In this document: positions 1,325-35,576 of the stretch, piece by piece | How the letters are laid out: each line of letters begins with the position of its first letter | How positions within the stretch are numbered: the stretch's first letter is position 1 | Assembly (NCBI GenBank): GCA_949289305.1 | Contig: CASENB010000016.1 | Coordinates: forward strand, 124,001-188,000 | DNA: 64,000 bases | Direction: 5' to 3' | Source of the DNA: an uncultured Spirochaetales bacterium | GTDB lineage: Bacteria; Spirochaetota; Spirochaetia; Sphaerochaetales; Sphaerochaetaceae | Made by a program: the position numbers and the translations under genes | Notes under the pieces: model-generated | Told to the model about the DNA's origin: nothing | The model's database searches: none | Seen by the model: only the letters and a program-made list of their open reading frames with translations

Positions 1325-3895
1325 ATGGCAAATAAGACAGAAGAACTGACTCCGATGATGAGGCAGTATCAGGAAATAAAGAGAGAGCACCAGGACAAGG
1401 TGCTCTTCTTCCGTTTAGGCGACTTCTATGAAATGTTCAATGAAGATGCAATCGAAGTGTCAAAGCTTTTAAACCTCACTCTGACACATAGGGGGGCAAC
1501 TCCCATGTGCGGCATTCCATACCATGCAGCGAAAAACTACATAGGGCGCCTGCTTGAAGAAGGAAAGAAGGTTGCCATATGCGAGCAGATAAATTTAAAT
1601 GAGAATTCACGCCAGATTGCTGAGAGAAAGGTAATACAGGTATATACCCCTGCGACGGTTGTCGAAGATGAATATTTAGAGAATGATGAAACGTCATTCA
1701 TCTTATCTCTTTCATTAAAGGCGAAAGAGATATATTTAAGTTATGCCGATATCACATCTGGAGCGTTTTACGTTCAAAAAGTGAAGCTAAGTCAGGATTA
1801 CAGCAACCTCTCTGATGCTTTATGCACTATCATGGCAAAAGAGATTCTTGTTTCAGACGATCTCTATTTCACTAATAAAGGCTTAAAAAGCGTTCTCGAT
1901 TCAAGCGGTGCCATTATAACGAAACTTCCCTCTTATTATTTTTCAGTTAAAAGCGGCAAAAAAGAAATTGAAAGGCAATTTGGAAAAATAGATTTAAGTG
2001 ATTTCAAAATTGGAGAGAAAGATCCTATTCTTGAACCAATTTCAGCGCTTCTTCTTTATCTGAATGAAATGGTAAAATCATCCCTTCCTCAGCTCAGGGT
2101 AATAGAGTGGAAGAGGGAAGAAGAATACCTTTATATGAATGCCGCGACAATTAGATCTCTTGAGCTTGTTGAGAGCATGAGGGATAAAAAAGGAAATTAC
2201 ACGCTTTATAAGGCTATTAACAGGTGTGTTACGGCATCTGGAGCAAGAAGGCTTAAAAGCGAAATACTGACGCCTAAGGCAAATATTGATGAGATAAACA
2301 AACGCCTAGACTGGGTGGAACATTTTTACAGCAATCCTGACGAATTGAAAGAAGTTAGATCATCTTTGAAAGAGGTTGCAGACTTAGAACGCCTTTCATC
2401 AAGAATGAGCCTTTTAAAGGCCCTTCCAAAGGATTTCACAGCATTAACGTTCAGCCTTGACATTATGTTTTCGCTGTTTGTGAAATACCAGCAGTACTTG
2501 GAACTAATAGATAATAACGAGGATATAGACTTTTCTGCTCTAATAGAGTTTTCTGAAAAAATTAAAAGTGCAATCAATCCTGAGTGTACGAATATTAACA
2601 ACGAAGGAACAATTATTTTAGACGGTTTTGATGATAAGCTCGACCATTATAGGAAAATTATCGCAGAAAGCTCAGAAATACTTTCTTCATACATTGAAAA
2701 AGAGAAGGAGAAAAGCGGGCTTACGATACTTAAGGCAGGGGAGAACAAGATAATTGGACACTATCTTGAAGTTCCTAAAGGACAGGTATCGAAAGTTCCT
2801 GACTATTTTATTAGAAAACAGACCCTAGTAACGGGTGAGCGTTACACGACAGAAGAACTTATAAAAATCGAAGAGGAAATTAGCGGAGCATCAGCAGAGG
2901 CAGCAATAAGGGAAAAAGAGATATACAGGCAGTTCTTAAAAGATGCATCTGCAATGGCAGAGAAAATCGAAAAAGTAGGACGGCTCTTAAGCCTTTTGGA
3001 TTTCTATTCAAGCGCCGCGCAGCTTGCAAAGGAGATGAACTACACAAGGCCCCATCTGAACGCTGAAAACAAACTTGTAATAAAGGACGGAAGGCACCCT
3101 GTCGTTGAAGCATATATGGGAAGAAACGAGTTCATATCTAACGATTTCTCATCGGAAAAAGGATGTTTTGCACTCGTAACAGGTCCGAATATGGCAGGTA
3201 AAAGCACATATTTAAGGCAGATTGCATTAATTGCAATTCTTTCCCATATGGGGTTCTTCGTACCGGCAAGGGAGGCAGAGATTCCTCTTCTTGACAAGCT
3301 TTTCTGCAGAGTCGGGGCTCAGGACAATCTCGCAAAAGGCGAGTCAACGTTCCTTGTCGAGATGAGTGAAGCTAGCCAGATTCTTAGGTCAGCTTCGAAA
3401 AACAGCCTGATAATCATGGATGAAATAGGTCGAGGCACTAGCACTGAAGACGGAATGAGCATAGCTTATGCGATAATAGAATATCTGAAGAACCTCGGAC
3501 CAATCACTCTGTTTTCAACTCATTACCACGAACTGACTCATTTCGATACCTACAAAATGCAGTTGATAACACTTAAAGTCGAAGAGAATAAGGATGGCAT
3601 CGTATTTTTGAGAAAAGCGACGGAAGGGGTCGCCACTAGCAGTTATGGAATACACGTTGCACGACTTGCAGGCCTGCCTAAAGAGGTGATAAAGAGTGCG
3701 ATAACATTTCAGAAGAAACACTTTGCCGACTATGATATGAAAAACAGAGATGCCGATTTGTTTATAGCGAACGACATCGAATTTTCTCTGGATAACGATT
3801 TGCTTGATGAAATACGTTCTTTCGATATAAACACATCTTCGCCGCTTGATGCGTTTAATTTGATACTAGATCTGAAAAAGAGGCTTGACAGCTGA
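1325..3895 (+). CDS. mutS: MutS, DNA mismatch recognition ATPase
   Basis: 856 residues, the usual length for MutS1. The N-terminal mismatch-binding motif is present (F34-Y35-E36 in GDFYEMF). The C-terminal ATPase has Walker A GPNMAGKS at residues 620-627, followed by the ST(F/Y)-E and DEIGRGTST Walker B/D-loop motifs and the STHYHEL switch. It binds mispairs and starts mismatch repair. It lies 9 bases after bamA and is probably co-transcribed with it; the ribosome binding site is weak. A hairpin terminator follows at 3940. No truncation or odd composition is seen. Confidence 0.97.
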   Translation: MANKTEELTPMMRQYQEIKREHQDKVLFFRLGDFYEMFNEDAIEVSKLLNLTLTHRGATPMCGIPYHAAKNYIGRLLEEGKKVAICEQINLNENSRQIAERKVIQVYTPATVVEDEYLENDETSFILSLSLKAKEIYLSYADITSGAFYVQKVKLSQDYSNLSDALCTIMAKEILVSDDLYFTNKGLKSVLDSSGAIITKLPSYYFSVKSGKKEIERQFGKIDLSDFKIGEKDPILEPISALLLYLNEMVKSSLPQLRVIEWKREEEYLYMNAATIRSLELVESMRDKKGNYTLYKAINRCVTASGARRLKSEILTPKANIDEINKRLDWVEHFYSNPDELKEVRSSLKEVADLERLSSRMSLLKALPKDFTALTFSLDIMFSLFVKYQQYLELIDNNEDIDFSALIEFSEKIKSAINPECTNINNEGTIILDGFDDKLDHYRKIIAESSEILSSYIEKEKEKSGLTILKAGENKIIGHYLEVPKGQVSKVPDYFIRKQTLVTGERYTTEELIKIEEEISGASAEAAIREKEIYRQFLKDASAMAEKIEKVGRLLSLLDFYSSAAQLAKEMNYTRPHLNAENKLVIKDGRHPVVEAYMGRNEFISNDFSSEKGCFALVTGPNMAGKSTYLRQIALIAILSHMGFFVPAREAEIPLLDKLFCRVGAQDNLAKGESTFLVEMSEASQILRSASKNSLIIMDEIGRGTSTEDGMSIAYAIIEYLKNLGPITLFSTHYHELTHFDTYKMQLITLKVEENKDGIVFLRKATEGVATSSYGIHVARLAGLPKEVIKSAITFQKKHFADYDMKNRDADLFIANDIEFSLDNDLLDEIRSFDINTSSPLDAFNLILDLKKRLDS

Positions 3896-28995: not shown

Positions 28996-29766
28996 ATGAA
29001 GAATAGGGTAGTACTATCTTTATTTCTTTCCCTTTTTTTGTTAACAGGGTGTGGAATTCCTACTTGGTTCTACATTTCCACTTCCAATGCACGCTTAAAT
29101 AATAACACGACAAGTTTTTCAACAAATATACGAGTCGATACGGAGTTTCCTGTAGAAGCTAAATTCATGCTTTTATATACAATACATAACGCAAGTACGG
29201 GAACAACGCCTACGATATCCTCCATACAGTCAAGCCTTATTAGCAACTTCAGATCCCGCTACAGACTAAGCGATGCAAACTCAAACAGATTTGCAAACGA
29301 TGGCAATCCTGTTGCCACGTATACTAACTCTACAAGCCAAACAACATTTTATTTATATCCGTTTAGAGTATCGGAATCTTCTGACGGCTCAAGCCTGCCT
29401 TCAAACGGCGTCGGTGGCGATATGGATTATTTATTCCGTTTCGATAATACAAACGGAACGATAGATGAGACTGTAACATACAGCGTAACAAATAATCCAG
29501 ACAGCACTGTCACGATTACGGCCACTATAAACGAAGGGGAATCAGATCAGCTTACATATACGTTGGCTCGTTACGACAGAACAGCATTTTTAAATAGCAG
29601 CAGCTATAGTTCGGACACAAAAAACGACCATTCGAGTGTTGAAAGCGGCAGTTACTCGATATATATATTCCCTGTAATGTATATCAGTTCTGATGACTAC
29701 AATGGAATGCACTTTAGCAATACAATGCTTGTTCTATCATCAGGATTCTTATCACATCAATTATAA
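28996..29766 (+). CDS. Lipoprotein of unknown function
   Basis: 256 residues from the ATG at 28996, chosen for AAGGAGGGA 5-8 bases upstream. Signal peptide with lipobox LLTGC (Cys at about 19). The mature part is rich in Ser, Thr and Asn with alternating beta-type strands (TVTYSVTNNPDSTVTITATIN), suggesting an extracytoplasmic beta domain. No family recognised. Last gene before the AT-rich accessory stretch. Confidence 0.85.
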   Translation: MKNRVVLSLFLSLFLLTGCGIPTWFYISTSNARLNNNTTSFSTNIRVDTEFPVEAKFMLLYTIHNASTGTTPTISSIQSSLISNFRSRYRLSDANSNRFANDGNPVATYTNSTSQTTFYLYPFRVSESSDGSSLPSNGVGGDMDYLFRFDNTNGTIDETVTYSVTNNPDSTVTITATINEGESDQLTYTLARYDRTAFLNSSSYSSDTKNDHSSVESGSYSIYIFPVMYISSDDYNGMHFSNTMLVLSSGFLSHQL

Positions 29767-30039
29767 TTGCTTGAGAAGGCAATAAATCGCATTATAAACG
29801 ATTTAACGTATGTATTATTCAAATGTATCTCAAAATTTGTTTAAAGCCTTTTAAAACATATTTAAACATAAGCAAACTAAAGAAAACCAGTATACAAAAA
29901 TTGCAACTCTTAAATTATTAAAAAAAATATTGCAAAAGGAAACTTTCAACATAAAATGCTTGCAATAAACAATATTCAATTTATATTCAAAAAAAGAAAA
30001 GCTGCATAATACATTTCAACCTTTGACGATAGGATTGCA
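29767..30039. other. Intergenic, no gene seen
   Basis: About 270 AT-rich bases. Two short hairpins just after the lipoprotein stop (ATTGC/GCAAT at about 29766-29784 and AAATCG/CGATTT at about 29786-29806) could end its transcript, but neither has a good T-run. Nothing else is recognisable. Confidence 0.6.
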
Positions 30040-30200
30040 ATATGAAAAATATGAGATTGAAGTTGCCGTTACAGGGCAACTAAGGAGAGAGAAGAGCGAG
30101 GGCCTCTATCGGTGCGAAGAGGGAAATCGAAATAAGTAGCACGCACATATGGCTAGCCTGTAAACTTAGAAGCTATGGCATCTGATCAAAGACTATAAAT
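30040..30200 (+). ncRNA. Possible structured RNA, unknown class
   Basis: A patch much richer in G and C than the bases on either side. AGTTGCC and GGCAACT (about 30060-30080) make a perfect 7-bp stem, and CCTCT/AGAGG (about 30102-30121) a second. No long frame, ribosome binding site plus ORF, or known riboswitch core was found. Strand and ends are guesses. It could also be a remnant of older coding DNA. Confidence 0.35.
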
Positions 30201-30266
30201 ACGGAGAAGAAATAAGGCATAATAAATCAAATATAGCTCATAGAAAATAAATCTTAAAAAATTCTC

Positions 30267-30295
30267 TTGACATCTGATACAAAGTGAATTAACAA
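30267..30295 (+). promoter_or_regulatory. Possible promoter for a small RNA
   Basis: Perfect TTGACA at 30267-30272, a 17-base spacer, then TAACAA at 30290-30295. The -10 is weak. It is the only perfect -35 hexamer seen in this gap and points at the hairpin-rich stretch ending in a terminator at 30449. Confidence 0.45.
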
Positions 30296-30301
30296 TTAGT
30301 T

Positions 30302-30449
30302 ATGGATAAAGAGGTGCTTAATACATTCCTCTTTAGGAAGGCACTTCAGTCCGTGCTCTCAAGCGAATATTAAATTCGCTCATATCTAACCCAATAAATG
30401 GGTACATTGCCTTAATGCGAGAGGAGTTAAAGCTCCTCTCTATTTCTTT
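30302..30449 (+). ncRNA. Candidate small RNA with serial hairpins
   Basis: About 150 bases with no frame, between a TTGACA promoter and an intrinsic terminator. In order: AAAGAGG/CCTCTTT (about 30308-30334), GCAC/GTGC (30341-30356), AGCGAAT/ATTCGCT (30362-30380), CCCA/TGGG (30390-30402), and the terminator stem. Such a chain of short hairpins is typical of a standalone RNA. It does not match tmRNA, RNase P (found elsewhere) or an SRP RNA core that I can recognise; 6S RNA is possible. Confidence 0.5.
30419..30449 (+). terminator. Terminator of the candidate small RNA
   Basis: GAGAGGAG (30419-30426) and CTCCTCTC (30433-30440) pair perfectly around TTAAAG, followed by TATTTCTTT. Confidence 0.65.
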
Positions 30450-30934
30450 GATAATCTGTTTCTAAATACAAGATCAGTTTAATGTAAAGCAATATTAAAA
30501 TTCATTAAGAGTCGCATATAAAATCACTTAAAAATTTTTTGAGTAGGGTAGGTTATAGAAAGTCTCCAACGGTATTGCTTAGCATTATTAATAAAAGAAA
30601 ATAAACTCTAGTTTTTTTAATTAAAATTTATCTCGAACTTATTTTTAGTGTATTATCTATTATATTTTGTATTAAATTAATTTATGTACTAAATATTAAA
30701 TTGAATTATATTTTATCTCAAATAATTTTTTATTTCATTTTATTTACTATCTTACTTTAATTATTATATTAATACTATTTTTATATTAGATTATTTATTA
30801 ATATGGTTTAATAATTATACTACATTAATAAATATCGTTAATTTTGAATATAAAATTACTTAGGAATACGAACTATAAAAATTGTATATAATAAATATTC
30901 TGTCAACTTTAATATAATTTTAGGAATCTTTTCT
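30450..30934. other. Very AT-rich intergenic DNA
   Basis: About 480 bases of mostly A and T with stops in all frames. No gene, tRNA or clear hairpin seen except AGGAATCT/AGATTCCT (30922-30944), which overlaps the end of the phosphatase gene and may terminate it weakly. Confidence 0.7.
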
Positions 30935-31366
30935 TTAGATTCCTAATTTATCATGCAATCCTTCGACTATATCATCGAAGCATGAATCAAAGTCATCTGT
31001 ATACCAAGGATCGGAAATATCTCGGTCAATAAGCAGACGTTCGAATTTCTCATCAAAAAGACCTCTAAACATCCGTTTAAGATTGTTCTCATTATTTCTA
31101 TCCATATAGTAGATCTTATCGAATGCATCAATATCATTTTTTGTTATTTGACGTGCTCTATGCTTTACAACTGGAATATTTTCTTTGTTTAGCTTGCGTA
31201 CAGCCGGTGGATACATCGTATTTCCAATCTCTTCTGTGCTTGTAGCAGCGCTATCAAAATAGAATTCATCTTCTTTTCCAGCTTTTTTAGCTAAATAAAA
31301 GGCAATAGACTGTGCCATTTGCGATCTGCATATGTTTCCATGGCAGACAAATAGTATTTTCTCCAT
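30935..31366 (-). CDS. Low-molecular-weight protein-tyrosine phosphatase
   Basis: 143 residues. The N-terminal P-loop CHGNICRS gives the C-x5-R-S signature with Cys8 as nucleophile and Arg14. The general-acid motif DP is at Asp119-Pro120 (DISDPWYT). It hydrolyses phosphotyrosine or related monoesters; arginine phosphatase activity is an alternative in this family. AGAGGAAA lies 5 bases before the ATG. It stands alone in an AT-rich accessory stretch, divergent from the broken ATPase. Confidence 0.93.
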   Translation of the reverse strand: MEKILFVCHGNICRSQMAQSIAFYLAKKAGKEDEFYFDSAATSTEEIGNTMYPPAVRKLNKENIPVVKHRARQITKNDIDAFDKIYYMDRNNENNLKRMFRGLFDEKFERLLIDRDISDPWYTDDFDSCFDDIVEGLHDKLGI

Positions 31367-31452
31367 AATTTCCTCTTACGCTCTTATATTCTATAAATAA
31401 AGAATAATCAAGTTTTATTAGAAAAACCCCTCCCCTACTAAAATTTATTTAA

Positions 31453-31483
31453 TGTACACGATTCTGTCCTTTTATATAGAAAC
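31453..31483 (+). repeat. 31-bp direct repeat, left copy
   Basis: Begins TGTACACGATTCT and ends CCTTTTATATAGAAAC. The same 31 bases recur at 33089-33119 with one mismatch (G here, A there at position 14). The two copies bracket the ATPase pseudogene. Confidence 0.9.
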
Positions 31484-31662
31484 GCAGAAATATTGCTATC
31501 TTATTCACTATGTAATGTAAGTTTTTATTTTTGAACCGTTTTAAATTTTAACTCTAAAAAAGAAAATTGAATGATCATCACAGAATTATTAATAATAATG
31601 TGATATTAATGTATTAAATATTTATAATTTCGTGATTACTTTCAAATTTTTCTTAAAATATA

Positions 31663-31708
31663 ATAAAAGTGTGATTTTAATACACAAAATTCTGTATAAA
31701 AGTGTGAT
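31663..31708 (+). promoter_or_regulatory. Tandem 13-bp repeats at the ATPase promoter
   Basis: ATAAAAGTGTGAT occurs at 31663-31675 and again at 31696-31708, exactly 33 bases apart (about three helix turns). The second copy begins inside the TGTATAAA -10-like box and ends 2 bases before the ATG at 31711. This looks like a tandem operator. There is no ribosome binding site. Confidence 0.45.
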
Positions 31709-31710
31709 AA

Positions 31711-33066
31711 ATGGTGGTATATGGAAAGATTGCTATTGCGAAACTATATAAATGGAAGAATTCGCCCTATCGAAAACCACTGATTTTAAAAGGTGTACGT
31801 CAGGTTGGTAAGACTTGGATTCTAAAGGAATTTGGCAAACGTTATTATGAAAACATTGCGTATTTCAACTTTGATGAGAATATAGAATATAAGCATTTTT
31901 TTGAGACTACTAAAGATACTAATCGCATCTTACAAAATCTAATGTTAGCAAGCGGTCAAAAAATTCTTCCAGAAAAAACTCTAATTTTTTTTGATGAGAT
32001 TCAAGACTGTCCTAATGTAATAAACTCTCTTAAGTATTTCTGTGAGAATGCACCAGAATATCATATTGCATGTGCAGGATCTCTTTTAGGTGTTGCATTA
32101 GCTAATCCATCTTCCTTCCCAGTTGGCAAGGTTAGTTTTATGCAGATCGACCCTATGTCATTTACAGAGTTTCTTATTGCCAATGGCGATGAAAAACTAG
32201 CAAAGTATCTTGAAACAGTAAATACTATTGAACCTATTCCAGATGCTTTTTTCAATCCTCTCTATGAAAAACTTAAGATGTACTATGTAACTGGCGGTAT
32301 GCCAGAACCCGTTAAAATATGGACAGAAGCACGAGACGTGGAAGCCATGCAGGAATCATTATCAGCAATAATAGAAGCTTATGAAAGAGACTTTGCAAAA
32401 CATCCTAATGTTAGCGAATTTCCTAAAATTTCAATGATTTGGAAATCCATACCATCGCAACTTGCAAGAGAGAATAAAAAGTTTATTTACAAAGTGGTCA
32501 AAGAAGGTGCAAAAGCTCGTGAATATTAGGATGCATTACAGTGGCTAGTGGATGCAAGACTAGTACATAAGATCTATCGAAGCGCTACCCCCAACCTCCC
32601 TATTGCAGCATATGATGACATCTCTGCATTTAAGATTTATCTAGTAGATGTTGGACTACTACGACGACTAGCTCAACTATCTCCTACCGCTTTTGACGAA
32701 GGCAATCGTCTATTCACAGAATTTTAAGGAGCATTGACAGAGAACTTTGTGCTTCAAACTTTATCGACTCAATTTGAAGTTGTCCCACGATACTGGTCTC
32801 AGACAAATCCACCTTATGAAGTTGATTTCCTTATACAAAGAGAAAATGATATTTTTCCTGTTGAGGTCAAATCTGAAACAAACACAAAAAGTAAAAGCCT
32901 TAAGAAATTTAAAGAACTGTTTCCTAATCAGGTCAAACTTCGCATCAGATTTTCACTGGATAATCTAAAACTAGATGATGATATGTTAAATATTCCACTA
33001 TTTATGGCAGATCAAAGCGATCGTTTAATAGGATTAGCAGTAGAACAGAGAAAAGTACTGGAATAA
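31711..33066 (+). pseudogene. DUF4143-type AAA ATPase with two in-frame stops
   Basis: One continuous frame of 451 sense codons broken by TAG at 32527-32529 and TAA at 32725-32727; no frameshift is needed. The N-terminal AAA domain is intact: Walker A GVRQVGKT, Walker B LIFFDEIQDCPN. After the first stop the frame continues ALQWLVDARLVHKIYR, and after the second GALTENFVLQTL, then the C-terminal nuclease-like part with EVDFLI and PVEVKSE (a D-ExK-type pattern). Family proteins read through both positions. Role of the family is poorly known. Flanked by 31-bp direct repeats. Likely decayed; stop readthrough cannot be excluded. Confidence 0.88.
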
Positions 33067-35228: not shown

Positions 35229-35254
35229 ATCTTCCTCCTTAAAAATATTATAAA

Positions 35255-35576
35255 CCAGGCCCTCGATAAGCCGAGTTCTGTTTATGTAATCATCTATCTC
35301 GGAATATGGTTACCCATATCCTCTAGCAGCCTACCCGCAACTATAGGCGGACAACCCAGTTGCTGCTTGGCCTTGCACCTGACGAGGTTTGCCGTGCCGC
35401 CTCTGTCACCAGAGACGCGGTGGTCTCTTACACCACCCTTTCACCCTTGCCATTAAATGGCGGTCTGCTCTCTGTTGCACTTTCTGTAGCATTACTGCTC
35501 CTGGACGTTATCCAGCGTCATGTCCTATGGTGCCCGGACTTTCCTCTACATTGTAGCGATTACTTCAAGAACCTGG
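35255..35576 (-). ncRNA. rnpB: RNase P RNA (bacterial class A)
   Basis: On the minus strand the diagnostic segments are in order: GAGGAAAGTCCGGGC near the 5' end, AGAGAGCAGACCGCC, AAGGGTGAAA, GGCAAACC, GTTGTCCGCC and near the 3' end ACAGAACTCGGCTTA. The ends CCAGG and CCTGG pair as helix P1, setting the limits at 35576 and 35255 (322 bases). It is the catalytic RNA that trims tRNA 5' leaders. It starts 7 bases after the stop of the zinc-ribbon gene, so its promoter lies inside that gene or it is cut from a shared transcript. Confidence 0.95.

Follow-up and report, generated by a model that had tools for sequence, protein, structure and literature searches.

A predicted standalone RNA gene conserved beside a dif-like site in one clade of a spirochaete genus

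The unit at positions 30267-30449 of the window (the whole analysed stretch of 64,000 nt, G000:C16:124001-188000, taken from a 2.27-Mb draft genome that is 86% complete) comprises, as read from the sequence, a TTGACA box, some 145 nt of structured sequence and an intrinsic terminator (Table 1). Comparison with related genomes gives good support to the view that this is a conserved RNA gene. With roughly even confidence, we read it as a monocistronic, noncoding gene for an RNA of about 145 nt, inherited within one clade, whose product would most likely be a trans-acting regulatory RNA working without Hfq. The original prediction had proposed a candidate standalone small RNA at this place, and both the conservation and the predicted structure in relatives speak for that reading. 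We infer that the host is a gut spirochaete.

Table 1. Predicted parts of the RNA gene (window coordinates; copies counted include that of the window).
Feature	Position	Strand	Basis
-35 box TTGACA	30267..30272	+	sequence; TTGACA in 3 of 4 copies, TTGACT in 1 of 4
Putative -10, TAACAA(T)	30290..30296	+	17-nt spacer; weak relative to TATAAT
Predicted RNA	30303..30449	+	82-92% conservation; fold z -5.7 for 30300-30449
P1 (30301-30307 with 30349-30355), closes the 5' domain	30301..30355	+	fold
P2 (30311-30318 with 30340-30347)	30311..30347	+	7 pairs counted, 100% formed
P2b hairpin UUCCU-CUUU-AGGAA, holds anti-Shine-Dalgarno-like UUCCUCUUU	30326..30339	+	invariant in 4 of 4
Alternative pairing of UAAAGAGG (30307-30314) with CCUCUUUA (30328-30335)	30307..30335	+	excludes P2/P2b
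P3 hairpin	30362..30380	+	one pair changed on both sides, U-A vs G-C
P4 hairpin	30389..30403	+	one A-U to G-U change
Linker with ACAUUGCCUUAA (30404-30415)	30404..30418	+	weak pairing in the window's own copy
Intrinsic terminator, stem GAGAGGAG/CTCCTCTC and T-rich tail	30419..30449	+	predicted; kept in 4 of 4

Transcription would run rightwards from the TTGACA promoter and stop at the intrinsic terminator. The hexamer, described beforehand as perfect, is indeed exact at 30267-30272, and a promoter scanner assigns it a second hexamer that is weak. By itself the box says little, because promoter-like sites in this AT-rich region (29000-32000) occur at chance level (19 found vs 17.4 expected). 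The positions of both boxes are kept in all four copies, the -10 element (TAACAAT, TATCAAT, TAACAAT and TAAGAAT) being poor by consensus. The RNA start at 30303 was placed from the promoter and may lie 1-4 nt further upstream. The terminator, which had been called a good one, was recovered by a scan at 30419-30440, and its stem and a T-rich tail are present in each of the four copies. Three terminator-like sites were found in 29000-32000 (0.9 expected), two of them representing one hairpin read on both strands and the third being that of the RNA.

The RNA, together with the same surroundings (lipoprotein-like gene, RNA, convergent phosphatase gene), was detected in four of the 48 genomes of the genus, i.e. 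G000, G016, G063 and G067. BLASTN searches of 60 genomes, including its own, revealed one strong match beyond the own copy, in G016 (78% identity, E 3.8e-35); the remaining matches were many but short, with E values of 0.01 and worse. The copies in G063 and G067 were added by local searches of phosphatase and other loci (the phosphatase gene was found in 41 of the 48 genomes, with 30 loci examined). A covariance model of the core retrieved the same four from the 48 genus genomes (E 1.8e-27 or better). These scores follow by construction, because the model was built from those four sequences, and the independent evidence for relatives is therefore the BLASTN match. The next match of the model in the genus had an E value of 0.38, and no homologue appeared in the other 44 genomes at E under 0.37, with filters that may lose weak matches. 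When the gap beside the phosphatase gene was read by eye in G034, G003, G031, G023, G019, G020 and G013, no such RNA was seen; the dif-like site described below is present in all seven gaps.

Extending the covariance search to 394 genomes of the class returned the same four and three further matches (E 0.017, 0.028 and 0.088 per genome), which are no more than chance over 394 genomes; the best of them falls within a protein gene. Nine named spirochaete contigs gave a single match (E 0.99), and G000 itself was matched once only at E 0.001, i.e. without a second copy. A phosphatase tree with 33 rows, 30 from genus loci and three others, places the four carriers in one group (support 92/87; 93% of bootstrap trees), and vertical inheritance within one clade of the genus is the simplest reading. 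A mobile element was rejected, as phage and plasmid records were without a match; two exact patterns, which detect near-identical copies only, also gave nothing in viral contigs.

Judged from the aligned copies, the RNA is under strong purifying selection, since it is 82-92% identical over six genome pairs, as against 19-36% at the fourfold-degenerate sites of mazG (37-47 sites per pair). Third positions of mazG are 46-47% identical, and the force-aligned 300-nt flanks 34-59%. For five of the six pairs, conservation of the RNA even exceeds that of the first and second codon positions of mazG, and for the sixth the two are equal, which suggests that the RNA does something important to these bacteria. 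The conserved stretch starts at the -35 box or a few bases before it and mostly stops at the terminator; CTGTTTCTAAATAC, directly behind the terminator, is also present in G016, in part in G067 and not in G063. Both paired and unpaired parts of the RNA are near-invariant, and all 12 bases of ACAUUGCCUUAA are identical in the four sequences.

The row of four short hairpins that had been noticed took the form, on folding, of a bipartite 5' hairpin, two simple hairpins and a weak one, followed by the terminator. The segment 30300-30449 has a predicted fold of -49.4 kcal/mol (z = -5.7), and none of 200 shuffles was as stable. For the full RNA, z was -5.1 in G000, -3.3 in G016, -5.3 in G063 and -4.8 in G067; with the terminator removed, the values were -3.4, -1.8, -4.3 and -3.3, respectively, and the fold of G016 was then not significant (15 of 300 shuffles). 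The RNAalifold consensus, terminator included, scored -41.2 vs -16.6 (sd 3.0) for column shuffles, with none of 200 reaching it. Conservation of structure in relatives had been set beforehand as the test of the prediction, and it was observed: BLASTN found the copy in G016, and the 22 pairs of the 124-column core all form in the four sequences (88 of 88 pair cells). Slid versions pair only 35-51%, a comparison that favours the structure, because the latter was derived from folds of these same sequences. Two of the 22 core pairs are changed on both sides, and P2 contains one pair so altered. With four sequences only, the covariation score was reached by 25 of 500 shuffles, and the covariation is modest and thin.

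Two mutually exclusive folds are predicted for the 5' domain. The main fold (P1, P2, P2b) has a probability of 0.99 in G000 and G016, 1.00 in G063 and 0.45 in G067, and the alternative hairpin one of 0.007, 0.007, 0.000 and 0.55 in the same order. P1 belongs to the favoured fold of G000, G016 and G063 and takes a shorter form in G067. If the first four bases are omitted, the alternative becomes the minimum fold in G016 and G067. On these models, two-state switching of the 5' domain is possible.

Upstream of the RNA lie, in this order, a gene which we take, from our reading of the protein, to be rpsA, a gene for a TPR protein and one for a lipoprotein-like protein without a Pfam match. Beyond the RNA there is a convergent gene for a low-molecular-weight phosphotyrosine phosphatase (PF01451), then an apparently broken AAA_14/DUF4143 gene, a small lipoprotein-like gene and mazG. 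The gap had been thought to hold nothing else that is conserved, which proved incorrect: a conserved dif-like site, TGTATATAATAAATATTCTGTCAACT, occupies 30883-30908, and the RNA ends 434 nt from it. Its sequence pattern (compared with E. coli dif), its conservation and the skew are the grounds for calling it dif-like. Cumulative GC skew along the window changes direction between about 28 and 36 kb, and the RNA would be located in the replication terminus, because the dif-like site adjoins it at this turn.

Several further observations concern this region. The dif-like site occurs, within phosphatase loci, in 12 genomes (own included) of the 30 genus genomes scanned. In two genomes a replication gene adjoins it in the phosphatase-side gap: a Rep_OBD (PF01719) replication-protein gene in G023 (L019:1959-2645), and a gene for a phrog_942 replication initiation protein with PF23343 in G020 (L016:2681-3412). 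These look like small mobile elements or phages integrated at dif. The spacer between the lipoprotein-like gene and the -35 box is 500 nt in the window (29767-30266) and about 22 nt in G016; its more G+C-rich part spans about 30020-30250, and a search of G000 at E 0.001 found the segment 29960-30250 only once. The AAA_14/DUF4143 ATPase gene (31711-33066) is apparently split into three frames, only the first of which was matched to Pfam, and this frame had no tblastn match in the examined stretches of G016, G063 and G067 around the locus.

RNAs that are conserved and structured, carry a terminator and have no gene downstream are usually trans-acting. Between the terminator and 31123 no plus-strand ORF of at least 40 codons begins; the 40-codon frame at 31123 itself is internal to the phosphatase gene. 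Since the next likely plus-strand gene begins only at 31711, past a convergent gene, the RNA has no evident gene to regulate in cis. The RNA would therefore be expected, on our favoured reading, to act in trans on mRNA leaders, base-pairing with them through its invariant segments. The foremost seed would be UUCCUCUUU, the complement of the Shine-Dalgarno-like AAAGAGGAA; it is kept within the P2b hairpin and could pair with an AAAGAGG inside the RNA. Among all segments AUUCCUCUUUAGG stands out most; its UUCCUCUUUAGG, likewise complementary to AAAGAGGAA, is invariant, and the AUU of the window copy is UUU in G063. In the favoured fold, most of the seed is base-paired. Hfq gave no match at E 0.01 in the eight genus genomes searched, several of them incomplete (5 of 14 control genomes were positive), so pairing would proceed unaided or via another chaperone.

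Possible targets were probed in the four genomes with the complements of two invariant 13-mers, allowing at most one mismatch. The sites numbered 36 and 14, vs 37 and 14 for the reversed controls, counts that include the RNA gene itself; in G000 alone there was an excess for the first 13-mer (13 vs 4 in the control). Of the 50 sites listed, 36 were compared by their flanks, after eight in the RNA gene itself and six without a locus had been dropped; one of the 36 (L165) was 345 bases off the usual locus centre. No two of these sites proved to be orthologous: all 36 matched themselves, and the best cross-genome match (E 0.004) was short and at unlike positions. Since this limited target search found no conserved site, base pairing is put forward as an inferred mechanism.

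Near-invariance in both paired and unpaired parts also speaks for a structured RNA that binds a protein or a small molecule instead of base-pairing (6S-like, a CsrB-like sponge or an orphan aptamer), its two 5' folds being two states. The two conserved alternative folds, the lack of an Hfq match in the genus genomes searched and the failure to find a conserved target point in the same direction. However, Rfam offered no match above chance and there is no downstream gene for cis control; furthermore, the GGA motifs lie in stems of the predicted fold and not in loops, and the alternative fold stays under 1% in three of the four sequences. We regard a binding RNA as possible, but rather unlikely. 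There is a slim chance that the gene represents a new RNA family that is a standalone two-state switch at a fixed place beside the dif-like site, in which P1/P2/P2b would alternate with UAAAGAGG:CCUCUUUA, hiding or presenting the anti-Shine-Dalgarno segment on some signal.

In G016 the -35 box begins about 22 nt past the stop codon of the lipoprotein-like gene, because of which the terminator of the RNA may also serve the lipoprotein transcript. This spacing would suit a 3'UTR element, or a mere terminator, of the rpsA-TPR-lipoprotein transcript, i.e. a readthrough RNA with no trans role. Such an origin is improbable, given that in the window the box is 500 nt downstream of the stop codon, and yet promoter and RNA are kept, and that the conserved part comprises the box and about 115 nt ahead of the terminator. 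The unit had also been said to contain no reading frame. The window copy does contain a nominal 23-codon ATG frame, and ATG plus NTFLFRKAL are common to the window and G016 copies in one frame, as a short coding gene or leader peptide might have it; but G067 lacks the start codon, G063 enters the frame from another start and the stops differ. A coding gene was rejected, no frame being common to the four copies, and we see very little likelihood of one. Hardly credible is a tracrRNA, or natural single-guide RNA, parted from its Cas9. Cas9 was found in G016, G063 and G067, and the covariance model weakly matched an apparent tracrRNA beside cas9 in G129 (24.4 bits, E 0.028, one genome of 394). 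On the other hand, 32 comparisons revealed no clear complementarity of the RNA to the CRISPR repeats of G016, G063, G067 and G129 (at best, ranks 5 and 6 among 100 shuffles), and in the Cas9 loci the model matched nothing in G016 and G067 and, in G063, gave only matches of E 1.6 and 3.5. Moreover, G000 (86% complete) yielded no Cas9, and the Cas9 proteins and repeats of the carriers vary, whereas the RNA does not.

Regarding the CRISPR systems themselves, Cas9 scored above the family cut-off in 15 of the 48 genus genomes and takes at least two forms there; the ORFs encode 1369 aa in G016 and G063 and 1170 aa in G067, and CRISPR repeats differ within the RNA-carrying clade. In G129, the apparent tracrRNA (L129:1501-1628) is accompanied by cas9, recognized by eye, at 1698-3128, and the CRISPR array is at L146:12649-13017; the repeat matches the tracr region at L146:7871-7897.

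At gathering scores, Rfam identified RNase P RNA (bacterial class A; 35251-35576, minus strand, 292.5 bits) and five tRNAs in the window, and nothing at the RNA gene. Relaxed scans of the gene gave weak matches only, none above chance, in agreement with the earlier impression that the unit fits none of the RNA classes checked by eye. The best of these, STnc290 (RF01403), spans the 3' hairpins and the terminator, and was rejected at 17.8 bits vs a gathering score of 60 bits. The RNA is not reported in the accessible parts of the literature searched, including PMC11109978, PMC8632094 and PMC7062461; the second of these surveyed intergenic regions in bacteria and lists Spirochaetes as one of its phyla (PMC8632094).

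With 6S RNA (RF00013) the predicted RNA shares the size range and a standalone gene. In 6S RNA a stem closes the molecule from end to end and holds a large central bubble, whereas here separate hairpins stand in a row and the gene is confined to four of 48 genus genomes; 6S was rejected on this shape, the patchy distribution and the lack of a model match at the locus. RF00013 found nothing anywhere in eight of eight genus genomes at E 0.001 (5 of 14 controls were found), and another 6S RNA missed by this model may exist elsewhere in these genomes. The row of hairpins with a terminator at its end recalls type II tracrRNAs, as does the single weak match of the model, at chance level, to an apparent tracrRNA in a genome of another family. 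In contrast to tracrRNAs, no anti-repeat was found in the RNA, and the window has neither cas genes nor a CRISPR array; this class was rejected, as no anti-repeat to the repeats of G016, G063 and G067 was seen. A riboswitch or attenuator was likewise rejected, there being no nearby downstream gene on the same strand (the next is at 31711, beyond the convergent gene).

The gene most resembles those of standalone trans-acting sRNAs, with which it shares promoter-like boxes, stable hairpins, an intrinsic terminator, the lack of a common reading frame and the lack of a downstream gene on its own strand. It differs from them in that it has no model relation to Rfam sRNAs, its host gave no Hfq match and the RNA is predicted only. 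It would be a starting point for work on RNA regulation in a group of gut spirochaetes where neither Hfq nor 6S RNA was found (family models, eight genomes), and the covariance model of the core can be used to find further members. Compared with these known systems, it is probably a new RNA family of an ordinary kind, that of the regulatory small RNAs.
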